Made by a program: the position numbers and the translations under genes
Origin: Chloroflexota bacterium
GTDB taxonomy: Bacteria > Chloroflexota > Anaerolineae > Anaerolineales > Villigracilaceae
Direction of reading: 5' to 3'
NCBI GenBank assembly: GCA_016219545.1
Contig: JACRMH010000022.1
Span: forward strand, 101,108 to 165,107
DNA length: 64,000 bases
The notes under the pieces: model-generated
What the model saw: the letters and a program-made list of their open reading frames with translations, nothing else
Told to the model about the DNA's origin: nothing
The model's database searches: none
Shown here: in pieces, positions 22,134-54,175 of the stretch
Position numbering within the stretch: the first letter of the stretch is position 1
Layout of the letters: each line of letters starts with the position of its first letter

Positions 22134-23951
22134 ATGCAACCCATCCTCAAAATAAATCTCACCACCAACGCAACCGAAGAATTTGTCATCCCAAAAGAGT
22201 GGGTGAACGAATTTCTCGGCGGAGCATCCCTTGCCGCACGGATTCTGTATCCGTATCTCACCAAGGAACTTGACCCGTTATCAGCAGAATCACCGTTGCT
22301 CTTTATCACCGGTCCGCTTACAGGGACGAATGGCCCGACCACTGGTCGCTTTGTGATCTGTGGGAAAGGTCCCGCCACGAACTTGTGGGCTGAATCCAAC
22401 ATCGGCGGCTTCTGGGGACCAGAACTGCGCGCGGCGGGTTACGATGGATTATGGATCACAGGGAAATCTCAAAGCCCGGTCTATCTTTGGATCGAAGACG
22501 GCAGGCTTGAGGTCAGGAATGCGGCGAGTGTTTGGGGTAAGGATATTTATCAGACTCAGGAAATGATCAAAGAAGAAGTCGGAGTCAAAGGCGCGCATGT
22601 CGCCGTGATCGGAGAAGGCGGGGAGAACGGCGTCTTGTATGCATCCATTGCGTGTGACCATGGACGCTTTGCCGGGCGCACTGGACTCGGCGCGGTGATG
22701 GGCTCGAAGAATCTCAAAGCCGTTGCGGTGCATGGTACGAAGAAAATTGCAGTTGCGGACTTTGAACGTTATTCCGCGTTGCGTTCCGAAGCTAACCGCA
22801 CGCTTAAGCAGGATAATGAAACGAAAATTTTTCACGAACTCGGCACGGCAGGCGGAGCAAATTTCGCGGAATATCTCGGGCAAATGCCTTCGAAATATTA
22901 TCATCAAGGTTCCTTTGAAGGCGTGGACAATGTCTCCGGCTCGAAGATGGCCGAAAGTATTCTAGTTGGGACGAGCGCCTGTCAGGGTTGTGTCATCGCT
23001 TGTGGACGTGTGGTGAATCTCGGCGACGGAAAAAAACGCAAGGGTCCTGAGTACGAAACCATTGTCGGCTTTGGACCGAACCTTTTAATTGATGACCTCG
23101 CTGAAACCGTGCGGCTCGGTGAACTGTGTGACCTGTATGGCATGGATGTTATCAGCACGGCCAACACGATTGGGTTGGCTTTTTATTTGTATGAATTGGG
23201 CAGGTTGACTAAAGAAGATACCGGCGGTATTGAACTGACTTGGGGAAATTTCATGGCAGTGCGTCAGCTAATCCCCATGATCGCACATCGTGAAGGGATC
23301 GGCGAATTGCTTGCGCGCGGGTCACGTCAATTCGGCGCAGCATTCAATGCGGAAGATGAAGCCGTGCAGGTGAATGGACTCGAGGTGGCATACCACGATC
23401 CGCGTGGTGTTTCTGGCATGGCTCTGACCTATGCCACCAGTCCGCGCGGCGCTTGCCATAACCAGTCAGATTATTTCTTTGTGGATTGGGGACATACCAA
23501 CGAACAGATCGGCATTGAATTCTTTGAACGTCATGTGCAGTCAGAGAAGGCGGCGAACGTGGCGCGCCATCAAAATTGGCGGACCGTCTTCAACTCGGCG
23601 GTGATGTGTATCTTTGCGAATGTGGAACCCAAAATGCAGGTGGACCTGGTCAATGCGGCCTGCGGCCTGGATTGGACTCTCGCCGATATGATGAAGTCCG
23701 GCGAGCGCGCCTGGAATCTCAAACGCGCCATCAATAACCGCATGGGGTTGACCCGAGCGAATGATAAATTACCCAAGGCATTTCTCGAACCCTACAAAGA
23801 AGGCGGAGCGGCTGGATTTGTCCCTGATTTGCCTGCCATGCTTAACGCCTACTATGAAGCGCGGGGTTGGGATAAGGAAAGCGGGAAGCCCTCTGAAGAG
23901 AAGTTGATCGAGTTGGGGCTGGGGGATGTGGCGAAGGAGTTGTGGGATTAA
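22134..23951 (+). CDS. Aldehyde ferredoxin oxidoreductase (tungsten-dependent family)
   Basis: GPLTGTNGPTTGRFVICGKGPATNLWAESNIGGFWGPELRAAGYDGLWITGKS, CQGCVIACGR Fe-S motif. Confidence 0.92.
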   Translation: MQPILKINLTTNATEEFVIPKEWVNEFLGGASLAARILYPYLTKELDPLSAESPLLFITGPLTGTNGPTTGRFVICGKGPATNLWAESNIGGFWGPELRAAGYDGLWITGKSQSPVYLWIEDGRLEVRNAASVWGKDIYQTQEMIKEEVGVKGAHVAVIGEGGENGVLYASIACDHGRFAGRTGLGAVMGSKNLKAVAVHGTKKIAVADFERYSALRSEANRTLKQDNETKIFHELGTAGGANFAEYLGQMPSKYYHQGSFEGVDNVSGSKMAESILVGTSACQGCVIACGRVVNLGDGKKRKGPEYETIVGFGPNLLIDDLAETVRLGELCDLYGMDVISTANTIGLAFYLYELGRLTKEDTGGIELTWGNFMAVRQLIPMIAHREGIGELLARGSRQFGAAFNAEDEAVQVNGLEVAYHDPRGVSGMALTYATSPRGACHNQSDYFFVDWGHTNEQIGIEFFERHVQSEKAANVARHQNWRTVFNSAVMCIFANVEPKMQVDLVNAACGLDWTLADMMKSGERAWNLKRAINNRMGLTRANDKLPKAFLEPYKEGGAAGFVPDLPAMLNAYYEARGWDKESGKPSEEKLIELGLGDVAKELWD

Positions 23952-35481: not shown

Positions 35482-36273
35482 TTATTCCTTCATTGATTTC
35501 CCCGTCCCCTTATCGCGCAGCATTAATATCTCAGACATGATGCTGACTGCGATCTCTTCAGGGGTTTCGGCTTGCAATTCCAACCCAATGGGCGAGTGGA
35601 CTTTTGCGATCTTTTCTGCGCTGATGCCTTTTTTCTTCAATGCTTTGACAGTGGTTGCCCATCTTCTTTTTGAGCCGATGATGCCAATGTACGCGGCAGC
35701 GGAGTCAAGCAGCGGGGCAAGTCCGGCCGCATCGACGGCTGATCCTCTTGTGGTTAAGATGAGGACCGTTCGTTTATCAATTTTGATGTGTTTGGGAAGT
35801 TCATCCATCGTCACCGGATAATACGCATCTGCCTCCGGCGTTGACTCAGGCGTGCAAAATTCGGCCCGGTCATCGCTGACAGCGACTCGATACCCCAGCC
35901 ATTTTGCGAGATGGACAACTGCCTTGCCCACGTGCCCTGCGCCGATGACGACGAGCAGTGGGGCGGGGAGAATGGGTTCCACAAATACCTCCACCTGACC
36001 TCCGCATACGCCGGGGTCGCCGCGTGACGGATCGGCCATGTTGTAATGCAATTTGCGCGGTTGACCGTCACTGATGGACATCCAGGCTTCATCAAGCACG
36101 CGATGCTCCAGGTCGCCGCCGCCAACCGTGCCAATGAAATGTCCGTTGGAATAGACGAGCATCTTACTGCCCACATGGCGCGGTGTGGAGCCTTCACTGC
36201 TCGTCACTGTACACAACGCGGCAGTTTCATTATTCTTTTCAAGTTCAGCCAGGGCTTGGTAGATGGATTTCAT
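35482..36273 (-). CDS. XdhC/CoxI family protein (molybdenum-hydroxylase maturation)
   Basis: AALCTVTSSEGSTPRHVGSKMLVYSNGHFIGTVGGGDLE, VVIGAGHVGKAVVHLAKWLGYRVAVSDDR. Confidence 0.92.
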   Translation of the reverse strand: MKSIYQALAELEKNNETAALCTVTSSEGSTPRHVGSKMLVYSNGHFIGTVGGGDLEHRVLDEAWMSISDGQPRKLHYNMADPSRGDPGVCGGQVEVFVEPILPAPLLVVIGAGHVGKAVVHLAKWLGYRVAVSDDRAEFCTPESTPEADAYYPVTMDELPKHIKIDKRTVLILTTRGSAVDAAGLAPLLDSAAAYIGIIGSKRRWATTVKALKKKGISAEKIAKVHSPIGLELQAETPEEIAVSIMSEILMLRDKGTGKSMKE

Positions 36274-42958: not shown

Positions 42959-45900
42959 TTAGCGGTTCTTGAGTGCTCTCCAAATCTTTTCTGGCGTGAC
43001 CGGGTTGTCGTCCACGTTGACGCCGATGGCATCGAGGATGGCGTTGCCGACTGCTGGCGCGACTCCGTCCATCGGAATTTCAGCCACAGCTTTGACTCCA
43101 AATGGATGACTCGGCTCGAACGTCTCAACGAAGATGGTTTCGAGTTCCGGCATTTCATCTGCGCGGAAGATGTGATAACGGTCAAAGTCCCGTTCGATGG
43201 CTTGACCCTTTTCGTCGTAACGCATTTCTTCGCAGACGGCATAACCAAGCGCCTGGGTCATCCCGCCTTCGATTTGCCCGGAGGCTGTCTGCGGGTTGAT
43301 GATGACTCCCGAGTCAACAGCCATCACAAGCCGGTCAACAGTGACGGCGCCTGTTTCTGTGTCCACTGTCACTTCGGCGAATTGGGCGGCGAAGGGCGGC
43401 GGCGATACCGGCGAGACATAACTCGCCACGCCCATGATCTGTTCCTGATTGTTCTTGTGCAAACTATCGAGAGCAATATCTGCCATTGAAACAGACCTGC
43501 CATCTGGAGCGATTGCCATGCGATTGACAAGTCGAATGTCAGCAGGTCGAAGGTTTTCACTCTGACTTTCGACTTTTGACTTTTGATTAATCATGTTTGC
43601 CGCTCTTATTCTGATCCTCTCCGCTACGATCTTGGCCGCATTGACTGCCGCTGTTCCGGAAATATAAGTTGTGGATGAAGCGTATGCGCCTTTATCGAAC
43701 GGTGTGAAATCTGTGTCGGATGAATAGGTGATCATATCTTCAACTGGCACGCCCAAAATTTCCGCTGCCATTTGCGCGAGGACAGTATCAGAGCCGGTAC
43801 CCAGATCTGTAGCACCAACCAAAAGGTTGAAAGAGCCGTCATCATTCATCTTGATGGATGCGCCGCCCATATCCAAATAAGGAATTGCTGTTCCTTGCAT
43901 GACCATCGCGATGCCAATACCTTTACGTAACGTTGAACGTTTAACGTTCAACGTTGAATGCCATTCCTCATTCCCAAACTTGTCATCCCACCCGATCGCG
44001 GCGCGGCCTTGCGCTACGCACTGTTCCAAGCCGACGGTGTTGATGATCTCTGGGCGCGGCTCGCGGCCTTCATTCCATGCTGTTGAGAACGGATGATATT
44101 CTCCGGCATGGATTGCATTCTTCAAACGGAAGTCAATGGGGTCAAGCCCCAACGCGCGCGCGATCTTTTCCATGTGACGGTCGAGCGGCCAATATCCTTG
44201 CGGCACGCCGTATCCGCGGAAAGCTCCTGCGGGCGGCGTGTTGGTGTAAACCACATCGGCATAAAAGCGAATATTCGGCGCTTTGCGATACTCGCCGTTA
44301 CCGACATACAATGCCATTGCCTTGTGACCCGTGTTTCCGGTCACGGTCAACGCATGGCAGCCATACGCGCCTGTATCCGATAATGCATACATCGAGTTGG
44401 CTGTGATCGTGCCATCTTTCTTCACACCGGTTTTCATCTGCACGCGCATAGGATGACGCGAACGCGCCGCGATAAATTCCTCTTCGCGCGTGTATTCATA
44501 GATCACAGGTTGTTTGGTCGCAATCGTCAAATGCGCGGCCACATCTTCGATCAACACTTCCTGCTTGCCGCCGAATCCTCCGCCAATGCGCGGCTTGATG
44601 ACTCGGATTCTTTTTACAGGCAATCCCAAAACCGGAGCCATCATTCTGCGCACATGAAATGGCACTTGCGTGGACGTGCGGATCACAAGGCGGTCATCTT
44701 CGTCCCAATAGGTCACCACCACATGCGGCTCGATGTGCGCCTGCTGAACTTTCGGCACTTCGTAATTCGCTTCAAAGATCACATCGGCTTCCGCGAATCC
44801 TTTTTCGACATTACCAATGTCAATGCGGATTTCTGCCGCAAGATTATTCTGCGGATCGGAATCTGCGAAGTTGACATATTCCTCTTCATCGTGAATACGG
44901 ATCGGACTCCCCATAGCCTGTCTCGCATCAAGGATCGGAGTCAGCGCCTCGTATTCGACCTCGATCAACGCGAGCGCCTTTTCAGCAATCTCGGCTGTTT
45001 CCGCCGCGACGAATGCCACGCGGTCCCCAACGAAGCGGACTTTCTTGTCGAGCGAAAACGCATCCAACGGCCCGGGGATCGGGTCGCTTTGTCCCGCAGT
45101 GGAATACACAACACGCGGCAGATCCTTCCACGTCAAGACAGCCGCGACTCCGTCCAATGCCTTGGCTTTAGTAGTGTCAATGTTTTTTATCAAAGCATGT
45201 GCGTATGGCGAATGTAAAACCTTGGCATGGAGCATTCCACGTTTTTCAAAATCTGCGGTGAAGGCAGGTTTGCCCTGCGCCAATTTGACCGCATCCAATT
45301 TGATTTCAGGCTTGCCGACGGTTTGGTATTTCTCTGTTTCAGGGGTGAGAATGATCCTTTGTTTTGTGAGCAGGTTACCTGTTGTATCGGGAGTCGGAAA
45401 TTGGGAGTCGGTTGAAGGTGGTTTTCCGATTCCCCGCGAAGCGTCCCAATTCCCAATTCCCGATTCCCGATTATCAATTCCCGACTCTCCCCTCAACATG
45501 GCCGCTGCCTTTAACACCGCCTGCACTGGCTTCAGATACCCTGTGCAGCGGCACAACACACCGGAGATCGCCTCGCGGATTTCAGCTTCGGTTGGGTTTG
45601 GATTTTTATCCAGCAGGGATTTCGCCGCGAGGATTTGTGCGGGTGTGCAATAACCGCATTGGACCGCGCCGGTTTCAATAAATGCTTTTTGCAGTGGATG
45701 CAGTCCTTCGGTCTTGTTCCAGCCTTGATCCGGATGCTCGCCCAATGCTTCGATGGTTGCGACTTTGTGACCCTCCGCCTGTGCCGCCAGCAAAGACCCC
45801 GCGTTGACAGGTTTGCCATTTAATAAGACTGTATCCGAACCACTCAAGCCGCCTTCATCGCCAAACTTGACTCCATGAAAGCCAAGTCCGCGCAGGGCGG

Positions 45901-45970
45901 AGAATAATGTTGTGGATGGAGTAAGGTCAAGGTTGTGGTCAGTACCGTTAATGTGAAGTGTGATGTTCAT
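42959..45970 (-). CDS. Fused xanthine dehydrogenase/aldehyde-oxidase-type molybdenum hydroxylase ([2Fe-2S] domain plus molybdopterin domain)
   Basis: N-terminal Fe-S domain with CGYC...CRC motif; Mo domain IGGGFGGKQEVLIE, PPAGAFRGYGVPQG, ATDLGTGSDTVLAQM. Contains three repeat-like in-frame segments. Confidence 0.9.
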   Translation of the reverse strand: MNITLHINGTDHNLDLTPSTTLFSALRGLGFHGVKFGDEGGLSGSDTVLLNGKPVNAGSLLAAQAEGHKVATIEALGEHPDQGWNKTEGLHPLQKAFIETGAVQCGYCTPAQILAAKSLLDKNPNPTEAEIREAISGVLCRCTGYLKPVQAVLKAAAMLRGESGIDNRESGIGNWDASRGIGKPPSTDSQFPTPDTTGNLLTKQRIILTPETEKYQTVGKPEIKLDAVKLAQGKPAFTADFEKRGMLHAKVLHSPYAHALIKNIDTTKAKALDGVAAVLTWKDLPRVVYSTAGQSDPIPGPLDAFSLDKKVRFVGDRVAFVAAETAEIAEKALALIEVEYEALTPILDARQAMGSPIRIHDEEEYVNFADSDPQNNLAAEIRIDIGNVEKGFAEADVIFEANYEVPKVQQAHIEPHVVVTYWDEDDRLVIRTSTQVPFHVRRMMAPVLGLPVKRIRVIKPRIGGGFGGKQEVLIEDVAAHLTIATKQPVIYEYTREEEFIAARSRHPMRVQMKTGVKKDGTITANSMYALSDTGAYGCHALTVTGNTGHKAMALYVGNGEYRKAPNIRFYADVVYTNTPPAGAFRGYGVPQGYWPLDRHMEKIARALGLDPIDFRLKNAIHAGEYHPFSTAWNEGREPRPEIINTVGLEQCVAQGRAAIGWDDKFGNEEWHSTLNVKRSTLRKGIGIAMVMQGTAIPYLDMGGASIKMNDDGSFNLLVGATDLGTGSDTVLAQMAAEILGVPVEDMITYSSDTDFTPFDKGAYASSTTYISGTAAVNAAKIVAERIRIRAANMINQKSKVESQSENLRPADIRLVNRMAIAPDGRSVSMADIALDSLHKNNQEQIMGVASYVSPVSPPPFAAQFAEVTVDTETGAVTVDRLVMAVDSGVIINPQTASGQIEGGMTQALGYAVCEEMRYDEKGQAIERDFDRYHIFRADEMPELETIFVETFEPSHPFGVKAVAEIPMDGVAPAVGNAILDAIGVNVDDNPVTPEKIWRALKNR
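43564..43591. repeat. Heptad array inside CDS (encodes INQKSKVES on minus)
   Basis: GACTTTC GACTTTT GACTTTT GATTAAT. Confidence 0.75.
43929..43955. repeat. Perfect palindrome inside CDS (encodes STLNVKRSTL on minus)
   Basis: AACGTTGAACGTT-T-AACGTTCAACGTT. Confidence 0.85.
45385..45492. repeat. Inverted heptad array inside CDS (domain linker)
   Basis: Left GGGAGTC GGAAATT GGGAGTC; right TCCCAAT TCCCAAT TCCCGAT TCCCGAT TATCAAT TCCCGAC TCTCCCC, all in heptad register. Confidence 0.85.
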
Positions 45971-45992: not shown

Positions 45993-46505
45993 TTATTTCA
46001 ATCGTGATTTTAACTCTTGCAGATGAGCAAGTATGTCTGGGTGCAAATCAAATTTGCCAGCTTTGGATATAGCGCTATTTGTAATTTGCTCTAATTCTTT
46101 GAGCGTTATGTAATCGTTTTTAATTAGAAAGATAATGTCGTCAAAATCAGTGAACAGACCACGATCTAATTTACTGAGCGCAATGCTGTACGGGTCAATC
46201 ACATAGATTTCAAGATTCGCAAATTGACCAATGTATATACTGCGTTGTTCATTTCCTTCCGGCAGGGGAACAAAGCGGTCAATAGGAACAATGTCAACCT
46301 GCAATTTCATTTCTTTGGCTTTCGCCATAATTGCGCGATGTAATTCATTTGGATGAACATCATCGCCGACGAAATCAATATCAAGAGATGGGCGCGGGCT
46401 TCCGAGCAGAGTCAATGCGCTGCCACCGACCAGGAATAAGCGAGAAGCAGGCGGGACTTGCTCTCCCAAAATTGTCAAGATGGATTGAAGTTTGGATTTA
46501 TCCAT
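45993..46505 (-). CDS. Nucleotidyltransferase-fold protein (DUF6036-like)
   Basis: LFLVGGSALTLLGSPRPSLDIDFVGDD (GGS..D.D). Start set at MDKSKL (46505), 3 nt from the upstream stop; longer start at 46541 possible. Confidence 0.75.
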   Translation of the reverse strand: MDKSKLQSILTILGEQVPPASRLFLVGGSALTLLGSPRPSLDIDFVGDDVHPNELHRAIMAKAKEMKLQVDIVPIDRFVPLPEGNEQRSIYIGQFANLEIYVIDPYSIALSKLDRGLFTDFDDIIFLIKNDYITLKELEQITNSAISKAGKFDLHPDILAHLQELKSRLK

Positions 46506-46507
46506 AA

Positions 46508-48099
<1,592 letters not shown>

Positions 48100-48136
48100 T
48101 CAGTTTGATTCGCTGTTTGTGTCCATGCTGTCTGAT

Positions 48137-49030
48137 TTATGCATCCACCTTGATCGCTGTGAAAGAGAACCGCGGCGGATAAAACAGAAATTTCCGCCCC
48201 CAGAAATCCAATAACTGCTGGGTGTTCATCCTGGATATTTTCGGTGTGACAGGTTTCTGCTTATCGCTTGGCCAGGGATCGGCCGGGTTGAGGATCAGCC
48301 AATCTCCGCCGTCGTAGCCGACCAAAACCATCGTGTGCGGCATTCCGCCCAGCCAGGTCAGCAGCGGGTTATAGCGATGTTTTTTGTCGCTGCGGTCAAA
48401 CGTTGTCTGCCAGGCGCCGTGAATGAGGAGAATATGACCTTCCTGAAGTTCTTCGATAAGATCGTTTAAATCCCGGCGGACATTGAGTTCTACTTTGAAA
48501 GATTTCCCGTATTTTTTTGCGAGGTTTTTTGCAAAATCTTTCAATGCGATGATCGCCTGCCAAGGGGTCATCATGCCCGGCAGCGGACTTCTGGTGGAGA
48601 AGCGGTACTTCCAGCCTTTCAAGCCGCGTGAATCGAGGTCGCGGGTATATTCTTCTATGGTCATATCTGCTTCGAGGTGATGACCTTGATACAGGGCCGC
48701 CCAATCCTTGAGCATGTTCATGCTTATCAAGGCAGAGGTTGTAACGCATTCATTCGCGGTTGGCCCGTAACCCTGGCTTTGAAAATAATGCAGAAAATAT
48801 GATTCCTTTTGTGATGAGTCTGATACCCACGGGAAAGGCAGCGAGATGGACGGCATTCCCCAAATTTTTCCAATGACTCCGCTGGGGGGATTTTCCTCCC
48901 TGCGGTTGCGATAGAGTCCGTCTAAAAAAGCATCCAGCCATTTGGTGAACGATCCTGCCTGGCCTTGAGTTGATTCCTCTGAAGTCAATTCGCCCGCCGT
49001 TTTGGTTTCTTCCTCTTTTAGGTTGGACAT
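48137..49030 (-). CDS. C39-like peptidase-domain protein
   Basis: GYGPTANECVTTSALISMNM (Cys region), HTMVLVGYDGGDWLILNPADPW (His region). Confidence 0.65.
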   Translation of the reverse strand: MSNLKEEETKTAGELTSEESTQGQAGSFTKWLDAFLDGLYRNRREENPPSGVIGKIWGMPSISLPFPWVSDSSQKESYFLHYFQSQGYGPTANECVTTSALISMNMLKDWAALYQGHHLEADMTIEEYTRDLDSRGLKGWKYRFSTRSPLPGMMTPWQAIIALKDFAKNLAKKYGKSFKVELNVRRDLNDLIEELQEGHILLIHGAWQTTFDRSDKKHRYNPLLTWLGGMPHTMVLVGYDGGDWLILNPADPWPSDKQKPVTPKISRMNTQQLLDFWGRKFLFYPPRFSFTAIKVDA

Positions 49031-49197: not shown

Positions 49198-49953
49198 TTA
49201 TAAGGCTTCCAAACATCTCTTCGCCAGTACGGACGCGACATCCATTCTGTATTCCGCGCTTGCCCATTCATCTGTCGCTTCGTGATAAGCGTTGCGCGCC
49301 GCGGACTCCAACCCTTCGGCTTCGGTGCCGTCCATGGCCAGCATGGGACTCTTGTCATAGCCGCCGAGTGCAAGGCGCGTGCGGCCGGAGTTCCATTGGG
49401 TCAAAGCGGCGCAGATGATGGGTTTATCTGCAGGCGTGCGGGAAACGAATTCAAAGGCGAATTTGGTGTTGAGGGGAAGAGTGATCAAGGTAATGAGTCC
49501 GCGTGGGCGGAGGGGGAGAAAATCTCCCAGACCATAGACAGTGGACGATGGACCGTCTACTGTCTTCGGTCCACGGTCTATGCTCAATTTTGCATCCATG
49601 GATAGTAATGCTGTTGCAAATGGGGATCGTCCGTCGCTTGCAACAAGAGTCCCTGCGATGGTGGCCATATTGCGGATGTTAATCGGCGCTTCGAGTTTGA
49701 TGGCAGATCTTAAGGCTTCGGGACAATGTTCGGATTCAAGTAATGACTGTAAAGTACAGGTCGCGCCGATCTCGAGTTCATTCCCTTTGACGCGGAGCGT
49801 ATCCAGTCCGAGGTGTTGCAAGTCCACAACGGAAACAGAGTCAACTGTCGGGTGAGAGAGAAGCGTGCCTCCTCCGAGTGGAAAAGTGTTCGGTTGAGAT
49901 AAAAGAGTCAGGGCTTCATCCAATGTTTGCGGACGGTGGTATGTCGTGATCAT
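49198..49953 (-). CDS. FAD-binding subunit of a molybdenum hydroxylase (CoxM-like)
   Basis: YHRPQTLDEALTLLSQPNTFPLGGGTLL, INIRNMATIAGTLVASDGRSPFATALLSMDAKL. Confidence 0.87.
   Translation of the reverse strand: MITTYHRPQTLDEALTLLSQPNTFPLGGGTLLSHPTVDSVSVVDLQHLGLDTLRVKGNELEIGATCTLQSLLESEHCPEALRSAIKLEAPINIRNMATIAGTLVASDGRSPFATALLSMDAKLSIDRGPKTVDGPSSTVYGLGDFLPLRPRGLITLITLPLNTKFAFEFVSRTPADKPIICAALTQWNSGRTRLALGGYDKSPMLAMDGTEAEGLESAARNAYHEATDEWASAEYRMDVASVLAKRCLEAL
49531..49582. repeat. Inverted heptad array inside CDS (encodes SIDRGPKTVDGPSSTVYGLG on minus)
   Basis: ACCATAG ACAGTGG ACGATGG ACCGTCT ACTGTCT TCGGTCC ACGGTCT; arms CATAGACAGTGGAC/GTCCACGGTCTATG match 13/14. Confidence 0.85.
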
Positions 49954-53704: not shown

Positions 53705-54175
53705 TCAATCCGGATAAACCTTCCAACCCAATTCATCCAACTTCGACATATCCAATTTATCCTGCGGCACGTTGATGTGAATTGCATTTGCCTCGGCCAG
53801 CAGTTCACCGCTTTCATCATAGATGCCTGCCCAAGCCTCGACGAATTTTTTGCGGTCCTTGCCCGCCTTGCCGATGATCTTCAACGGCTGCCCGATCGGC
53901 ACATTCTTGCGATACTTTACCTCGAGTTTTCCGGTGAACATAAAACGCGGCGAGTCGGCATCGCCCATGTGTGCGCGCCCGCTGACTTCATCCAAGATCG
54001 CCGCGACAATTCCGCCATGCAGAACGCCGGGATACCCTTGAAAATGGTCCGGCGCAGTGTATGCAGTTTCAACCACACCGGGTTCAATTTCATAAATATG
54101 CAAATGCAAGCCGACCGGATTTTCCAATCCGCAAATAAAACAGTGACGTGAGTTGGGTTGTTTGATTTTGGACAT
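53705..54175 (-). CDS. PaaI/hotdog-fold thioesterase
   Basis: CFICGLENPVGLHLHIYEIE, FQGYPGVLHGGIVAAILDEVSGRA. Start reset from 54436 to MSKIKQ at 54175. Confidence 0.85.
   Translation of the reverse strand: MSKIKQPNSRHCFICGLENPVGLHLHIYEIEPGVVETAYTAPDHFQGYPGVLHGGIVAAILDEVSGRAHMGDADSPRFMFTGKLEVKYRKNVPIGQPLKIIGKAGKDRKKFVEAWAGIYDESGELLAEANAIHINVPQDKLDMSKLDELGWKVYPD

Follow-up and report, generated by a model that had tools for sequence, protein, structure and literature searches.

Loss of the cluster II cysteines from an XdhD-like molybdenum hydroxylase of Chloroflexota, in a family where either [2Fe-2S] cluster appears to have been lost repeatedly

In enzymes of the xanthine oxidase family, the electron relay runs in the order Mo, cluster I, cluster II and FAD, a chain that is usually held as fixed wiring. 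In the known members of the family, electrons travel over both clusters on their way between Mo and either FAD or an external protein (PMC12316806). How electrons would move in a member that has no ligands for cluster II is the question raised by one gene of the window, that is, of the whole 64,000-nt stretch of DNA from a Chloroflexota bacterium that we analysed:

42959..45970, minus strand: fused [2Fe-2S]/Mo-binding subunit of an XdhD-like Mo hydroxylase, 1003 aa (open reading frame, translation and profile matches)

The reading frame starts with ATG, and its product begins with a ferredoxin-like domain, followed by Fer2_2 and a complete Mo-binding region. The Pfam search matched Fer2_2, Ald_Xan_dh_C, MoCoBD_1 and MoCoBD_2, with PF01315, PF02738 and PF20256 (the a/b hammerhead and both MoCo-binding domains) above cut-off, and returned no Fer2 match at E <= 0.001. 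The two cluster sites were located by alignment, for cluster II with orthologues that keep all eight cluster cysteines (all-Cys orthologues):

about 45791..45868, minus strand: former cluster II loop KFGDEGGLSGSDTVLLNGKPVNAGS, residues 35-60
45545..45658, minus strand: cluster I ligands C105, C108, C140 and C142, intact (CxxC and CxC; CGYC...CRC)

The residues found at the four ferredoxin-type cysteine positions are D38, S43, D46 and G58. The initial annotation had reported that these four cysteines were gone and that the second cluster was complete, and the alignment bore it out in every checkable detail. It had also named cysteines supplied elsewhere or a sequence error as possible sources of an apparent loss. 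The sole further cysteines of the protein (C538, C651 and C913) all lie within the Mo domain, so that the lost cluster II ligands have no replacement, and a sequence error is ruled out by the presence of the same state in 50 of 114 distinct orthologues. As judged from its sequence, the protein is a member of the xanthine oxidase family by its Mo domains and cluster I, and departs from that family in its cluster II ligands.

Orthologues were gathered from whole genomes and from a species-level genome collection, and the eight ligand positions were read in each of them. Most of the sequences belong to metagenome-assembled genomes, with related loci from Anaerolineales and Anaerolineae, and losses beyond Chloroflexota were sampled in E. 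coli and a few plasmid records only. Close orthologues, with 80-88% identity, were present in nearly all genomes sampled from the window's genus. Among the 114 distinct sequences, 53 kept both clusters, 50 lacked cluster II only, 3 lacked cluster I only and 8 lacked both. The D/S/D/G pattern is shared, since nearly all of the orthologues that lost cluster II and kept cluster I carry DSDG or DTDG at the ligand positions; the variants ATDD, SDSI and DSSA also occur among orthologues without cluster II ligands. Both clusters are missing in L087, L095, L120, L124, L142, L143, L146 and E. coli XdhD. The orthologues L048:95-3103, L133:10001-12934 and L137:3710-6643 present the mirror image of the window protein, with CCCC at cluster II and SNVD, SDSE and SESE, respectively, at cluster I. 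In L121 and L037 (Chloroflexi OLB14) the frame of the Mo gene is disrupted near residue 253 by an in-frame TGA preceded by garbled residues, likely a frameshift in the assembly or in the gene.

On a tree built from the Mo domain only (94 rows), the observed states call for at least nine changes at cluster II and at least seven at cluster I. Cluster II loss is nested among eight-Cys orthologues on the Mo-domain tree, where the all-Cys L042 lies near the window protein. AU tests, which used quick trees and groups defined after the data were seen, rejected one clade of all cluster II losers (p-AU 1e-49) or of all cluster I losers (p-AU 6e-87), and with it a single loss. Counts of changes alone do not give the direction of change; since regain would need four cysteines at the exact sites, we take loss as the sensible reading. 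The replacement motif is strikingly similar on distant branches, as might follow from sequence error, or from one loss in an ancestor that then spread through exchange of the N-terminal domain. We find this scarcely credible, since the state is common to fifty orthologues, with error already refuted, and since the N-terminal domains follow their Mo-domain sisters once the cluster loops are removed (L124 with L126, L128 and L132; L048 with L057, L122 and L141) in a tree that rests on 114 columns only. A swapped N-terminal domain is thus unsupported, on these few columns, and the alike loops on distant branches look like convergence rather than the spread of a single domain. As far as the sequences tell, either or both clusters have been lost repeatedly and independently, in all combinations, within the family.

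The substitutions at cluster II were accompanied by a high degree of conservation. In the cluster II-lost orthologues, mean identity reached 86% in loop 33-62 compared to 73% in the rest of the ferredoxin domain, and median dN/dS was about 0.06 for the loop, against about 0.05 for the Mo domain, values that are rough because synonymous sites are near saturation. By these measures the replacement loop is under purifying selection. Given that cofactor ligands have been lost more than once in the family, the protein could be regarded as a decaying or non-redox relict, an explanation that is highly improbable in view of the invariant Mo-site residues, the dN/dS of the Mo domain and the near-universal presence of the gene in the window's genus. 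A full-length AlphaFold model (24 sequences, pLDDT 68) was too weak for detail, and the N-terminal domain was therefore modelled separately. AlphaFold2 modelled the N-terminal 164 residues, with 64 sequences, at pLDDT 91.7, and the closest solved structures were [2Fe-2S] subunits of the Mo hydroxylase family (TM-score 0.87-0.89). The structural model, which the initial annotation had put forward as a check, predicts that the ferredoxin fold is kept despite the loss of its ligands; it holds no cofactors and is uninformative on metals. It is very unlikely that the D-S/T-D-G loop still binds a metal or an unusually ligated cluster: Asp does recur at the first and third cysteine positions in several independent losses, E. 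coli included, but Gly or Val occupies the fourth position, the second varies between Ser, Thr and Ala, and the variants listed above diverge further, so that no full ligand set is conserved.

We then considered which reaction the enzyme might catalyse. The best NCBIfam match of the window protein was TIGR03313, the XdhD family, with 686 bits, below the cut-off of 1101.9, and its identity to E. coli XdhD in the alignment was about 40%. The alignment also placed a candidate active-site residue:

44069..44071, minus strand: codon of Glu634, equivalent of E. coli XdhD Glu606

Glu606 has been proposed to help orient urate in E. coli XdhD (PMC12507026). The position of Glu634 is E in 112 of the 112 rows that have a residue there, and it sits in a short insertion that three paralogues from the same genome do not have. 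Because of the homology, this active-site residue and the gene neighbourhood, we consider the protein XdhD-like and a probable reductase; in reductive uricolysis its likely role is that of the urate reductase, which would convert urate to yanthine.

The neighbourhood of the Mo gene includes the following features:

49198..49953, minus strand: FAD-binding subunit, YgfM-like, 251 aa (TIGR03312, 72.8 bits, below cut-off; PF00941)
45993..49030, minus strand: four genes between the Mo and FAD genes (open reading frames, Pfam)
35482..36273, minus strand: XdhC/CoxI-like maturation factor (tblastn match to the N-terminal half of E. coli YqeB)
53705..54175, minus strand: thioesterase-like gene that adjoins the FAD subunit gene in relatives (tblastn and synteny; named by eye)

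The FAD gene lies 3.2 kb upstream of the Mo gene in the window, and both genes are conserved together in relatives. The four intervening genes encode a DUF6036/AbiEii-like nucleotidyltransferase, a 160-aa protein, a DNA methylase with a RAMA domain and a 297-aa protein, and relatives with adjoining FAD and Mo genes, G043 among them, lack these four. The nucleotidyltransferase and the RAMA methylase are possibly part of an inserted defence or mobile module. The RAMA methylase family was seen near the Mo locus in 18 neighbourhoods, all of them from the cluster II-lost group. The XdhC/CoxI-like family, linked in most relatives, was present in 55 of 83 neighbourhoods. Of the marks of a selenium-dependent Mo hydroxylase, namely labile Se at the Mo site together with SelD and YqeB/YqeC, the window showed only this XdhC/CoxI-like gene with its match to half of YqeB. 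SsnA scored above its family cut-off in 45 of 61 genomes and is linked with the FAD, Mo and F420-type genes in relatives, over 6-27 kb. The G043 genome carries a 15-kb cluster in the order SsnA, NpdG, CofE, nitroreductase, CofD, CofC, luciferase-family enzyme, thioesterase, FAD subunit, Mo subunit and XdhC. Relatives of the window keep this gene order split into two nearby blocks, and in the window's own genome the SsnA-to-luciferase block is on another contig, C37. Elsewhere in the window, the open reading frame at 22134-23951 resembles, by eye, a tungsten aldehyde:ferredoxin oxidoreductase.

From the ligand loss the initial annotation had concluded that a different acceptor or mechanism was implied. 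The loss itself stands, but the idea of a different acceptor has to be recast: for an XdhD-like protein that is probably a reductase, the question becomes that of the electron donor. The motifs of the FAD subunit are the same in orthologue sets with and without cluster loss, and the comparison between the groups revealed no clear change that tracks the loss. We consider it somewhat more probable than its negation that this is an XdhD-type, probably urate-reducing Mo enzyme of uncultured Anaerolineales with a cluster-free ferredoxin scaffold, whose Mo site is fed from FAD via cluster I. The ferredoxin domain without cluster II would be retained as a folded scaffold by the selected D-S/T-D-G loop, and electrons for Mo would still come from the retained FAD subunit, entering via cluster I and bypassing cluster II. 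We infer all three components: the substrate, the metal-free loop and the electron route. A reduction that is still driven by FAD, with electrons entering at cluster I, is favoured because the FAD subunit is retained and because of a report on E. coli XdhD, discussed below, in which NADH was used. Several observations count against it: FAD adjoins cluster II in solved relatives, which would leave a long distance for direct transfer between FAD and cluster I unless docking differs; the TIGR03313 score is below cut-off; and in the window's genome the SsnA block and the Mo gene are on different contigs, with 3.2 kb between the Mo gene and the FAD gene.

A serious rival, although an unlikely one on balance, is that electrons enter cluster I (or Mo) from a ferredoxin, a flavodoxin or an F420-linked enzyme and that the FAD subunit no longer feeds the Mo subunit. 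What makes it serious is that in several loci that lost both clusters, such as L095, L120, L124 and L142, the upstream flank of 5-10 kb that was examined contains no FAD gene. In addition, members of the cluster II-lost clade often have the FAD gene at a distance of 2.5-9 kb from the Mo gene, whereas most all-Cys relatives have the two side by side, F420-type genes belong to the conserved neighbourhood, and an aldehyde oxidoreductase of the D. gigas type functions without a FAD domain (PMC12316806). However, the cluster II-lost clade has conserved the FAD subunit, with its motifs unaltered, no ferredoxin gene was found near the Mo gene in the neighbourhood examined, and the coupling of cluster loss to separation of the FAD gene, present in raw counts, was gone on phylogenetically independent pairs.

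E. coli XdhD brings the same question to an enzyme of reported activity. Co-purified with a protein taken as YgfM, it has been reported to convert urate to yanthine with NADH (PMC12507026; PMC12990295). Searched by word, the main text of PMC12507026 mentions no cysteines, and Fe-S for YgfK only. E. coli K-12 xdhD (L011:13317-16187) encodes none of the eight Fe-S cysteines, though its RefSeq name is 'Mo/Fe-S-binding subunit', which suggests that this database label is wrong; the gene is present in 5157 of 5426 E. coli genomes. Since E. coli XdhD lacks the eight cysteines and yet NADH use was reported, cluster loss need not mean a new partner. The XdhD of Cetobacterium, with 45% identity to that of E. 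coli, keeps all eight cysteines, and therefore the E. coli loss is separate. In Cetobacterium somerae, a near-complete urate degradation cluster (L152:1870-17744) is located on a 664-kb plasmid and comprises dpaL, a ygeY-like gene, D-aminoacylase, ssnA, the FAD subunit, the all-Cys XdhD and dihydropyrimidinase. A broader proposition, possible but doubtful, is that the XdhD family transfers electrons between FAD and Mo without the full [2Fe-2S] relay, so that the clusters would be dispensable and lost independently in many lineages, including E. coli. If true, a cluster-free NADH-dependent Mo reductase would already exist in E. coli.

The losses in this family challenge the textbook view of the relay. 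They provide a natural orthologue set in which either link or both have been removed while the Mo domain is still under strong selection, and which, with E. coli XdhD included, allows testing of the need for the relay and of the electron path to Mo, and touches on the electron donor of bacterial urate reduction. Our search of the open-access literature found no published Mo hydroxylase of the xanthine oxidase family without a cluster, which is a weak negative.

Among known systems, 4-hydroxybenzoyl-CoA reductase (PDB 1RM6), a family member that acts as a reductase, is the best solved match of the window Mo region by sequence; it differs in having three separate subunits, a solved Fe-S subunit that is not cluster-depleted and another substrate. 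The Desulfovibrio gigas aldehyde oxidoreductase (MOP, PDB 1SIJ), the best structural match of the full-length model (pLDDT 68), resembles the window protein in joining both Fe-S domains and the Mo domain in a single chain, but it keeps both clusters, has no FAD subunit and oxidises aldehydes. All-Cys Anaerolineales orthologues such as L042 (G049) share 74-76% identity with the window protein over the full length, as well as the FAD gene and the type of neighbourhood, and differ in keeping the eight cluster cysteines. E. coli XdhD (YgfN)/YgfM is like the window enzyme in its fused Fe-S/Mo architecture, in Glu606/Glu634, in its FAD partner, in the presence of SsnA in the pathway cluster, which relatives of the window show, and in the lack of cluster II ligands, with D, A, D and S at these positions. 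In contrast to the window protein, it has lost cluster I too, through an independent loss, and its pathway partner is YgfK, whereas that of the present system is a luciferase-family enzyme.
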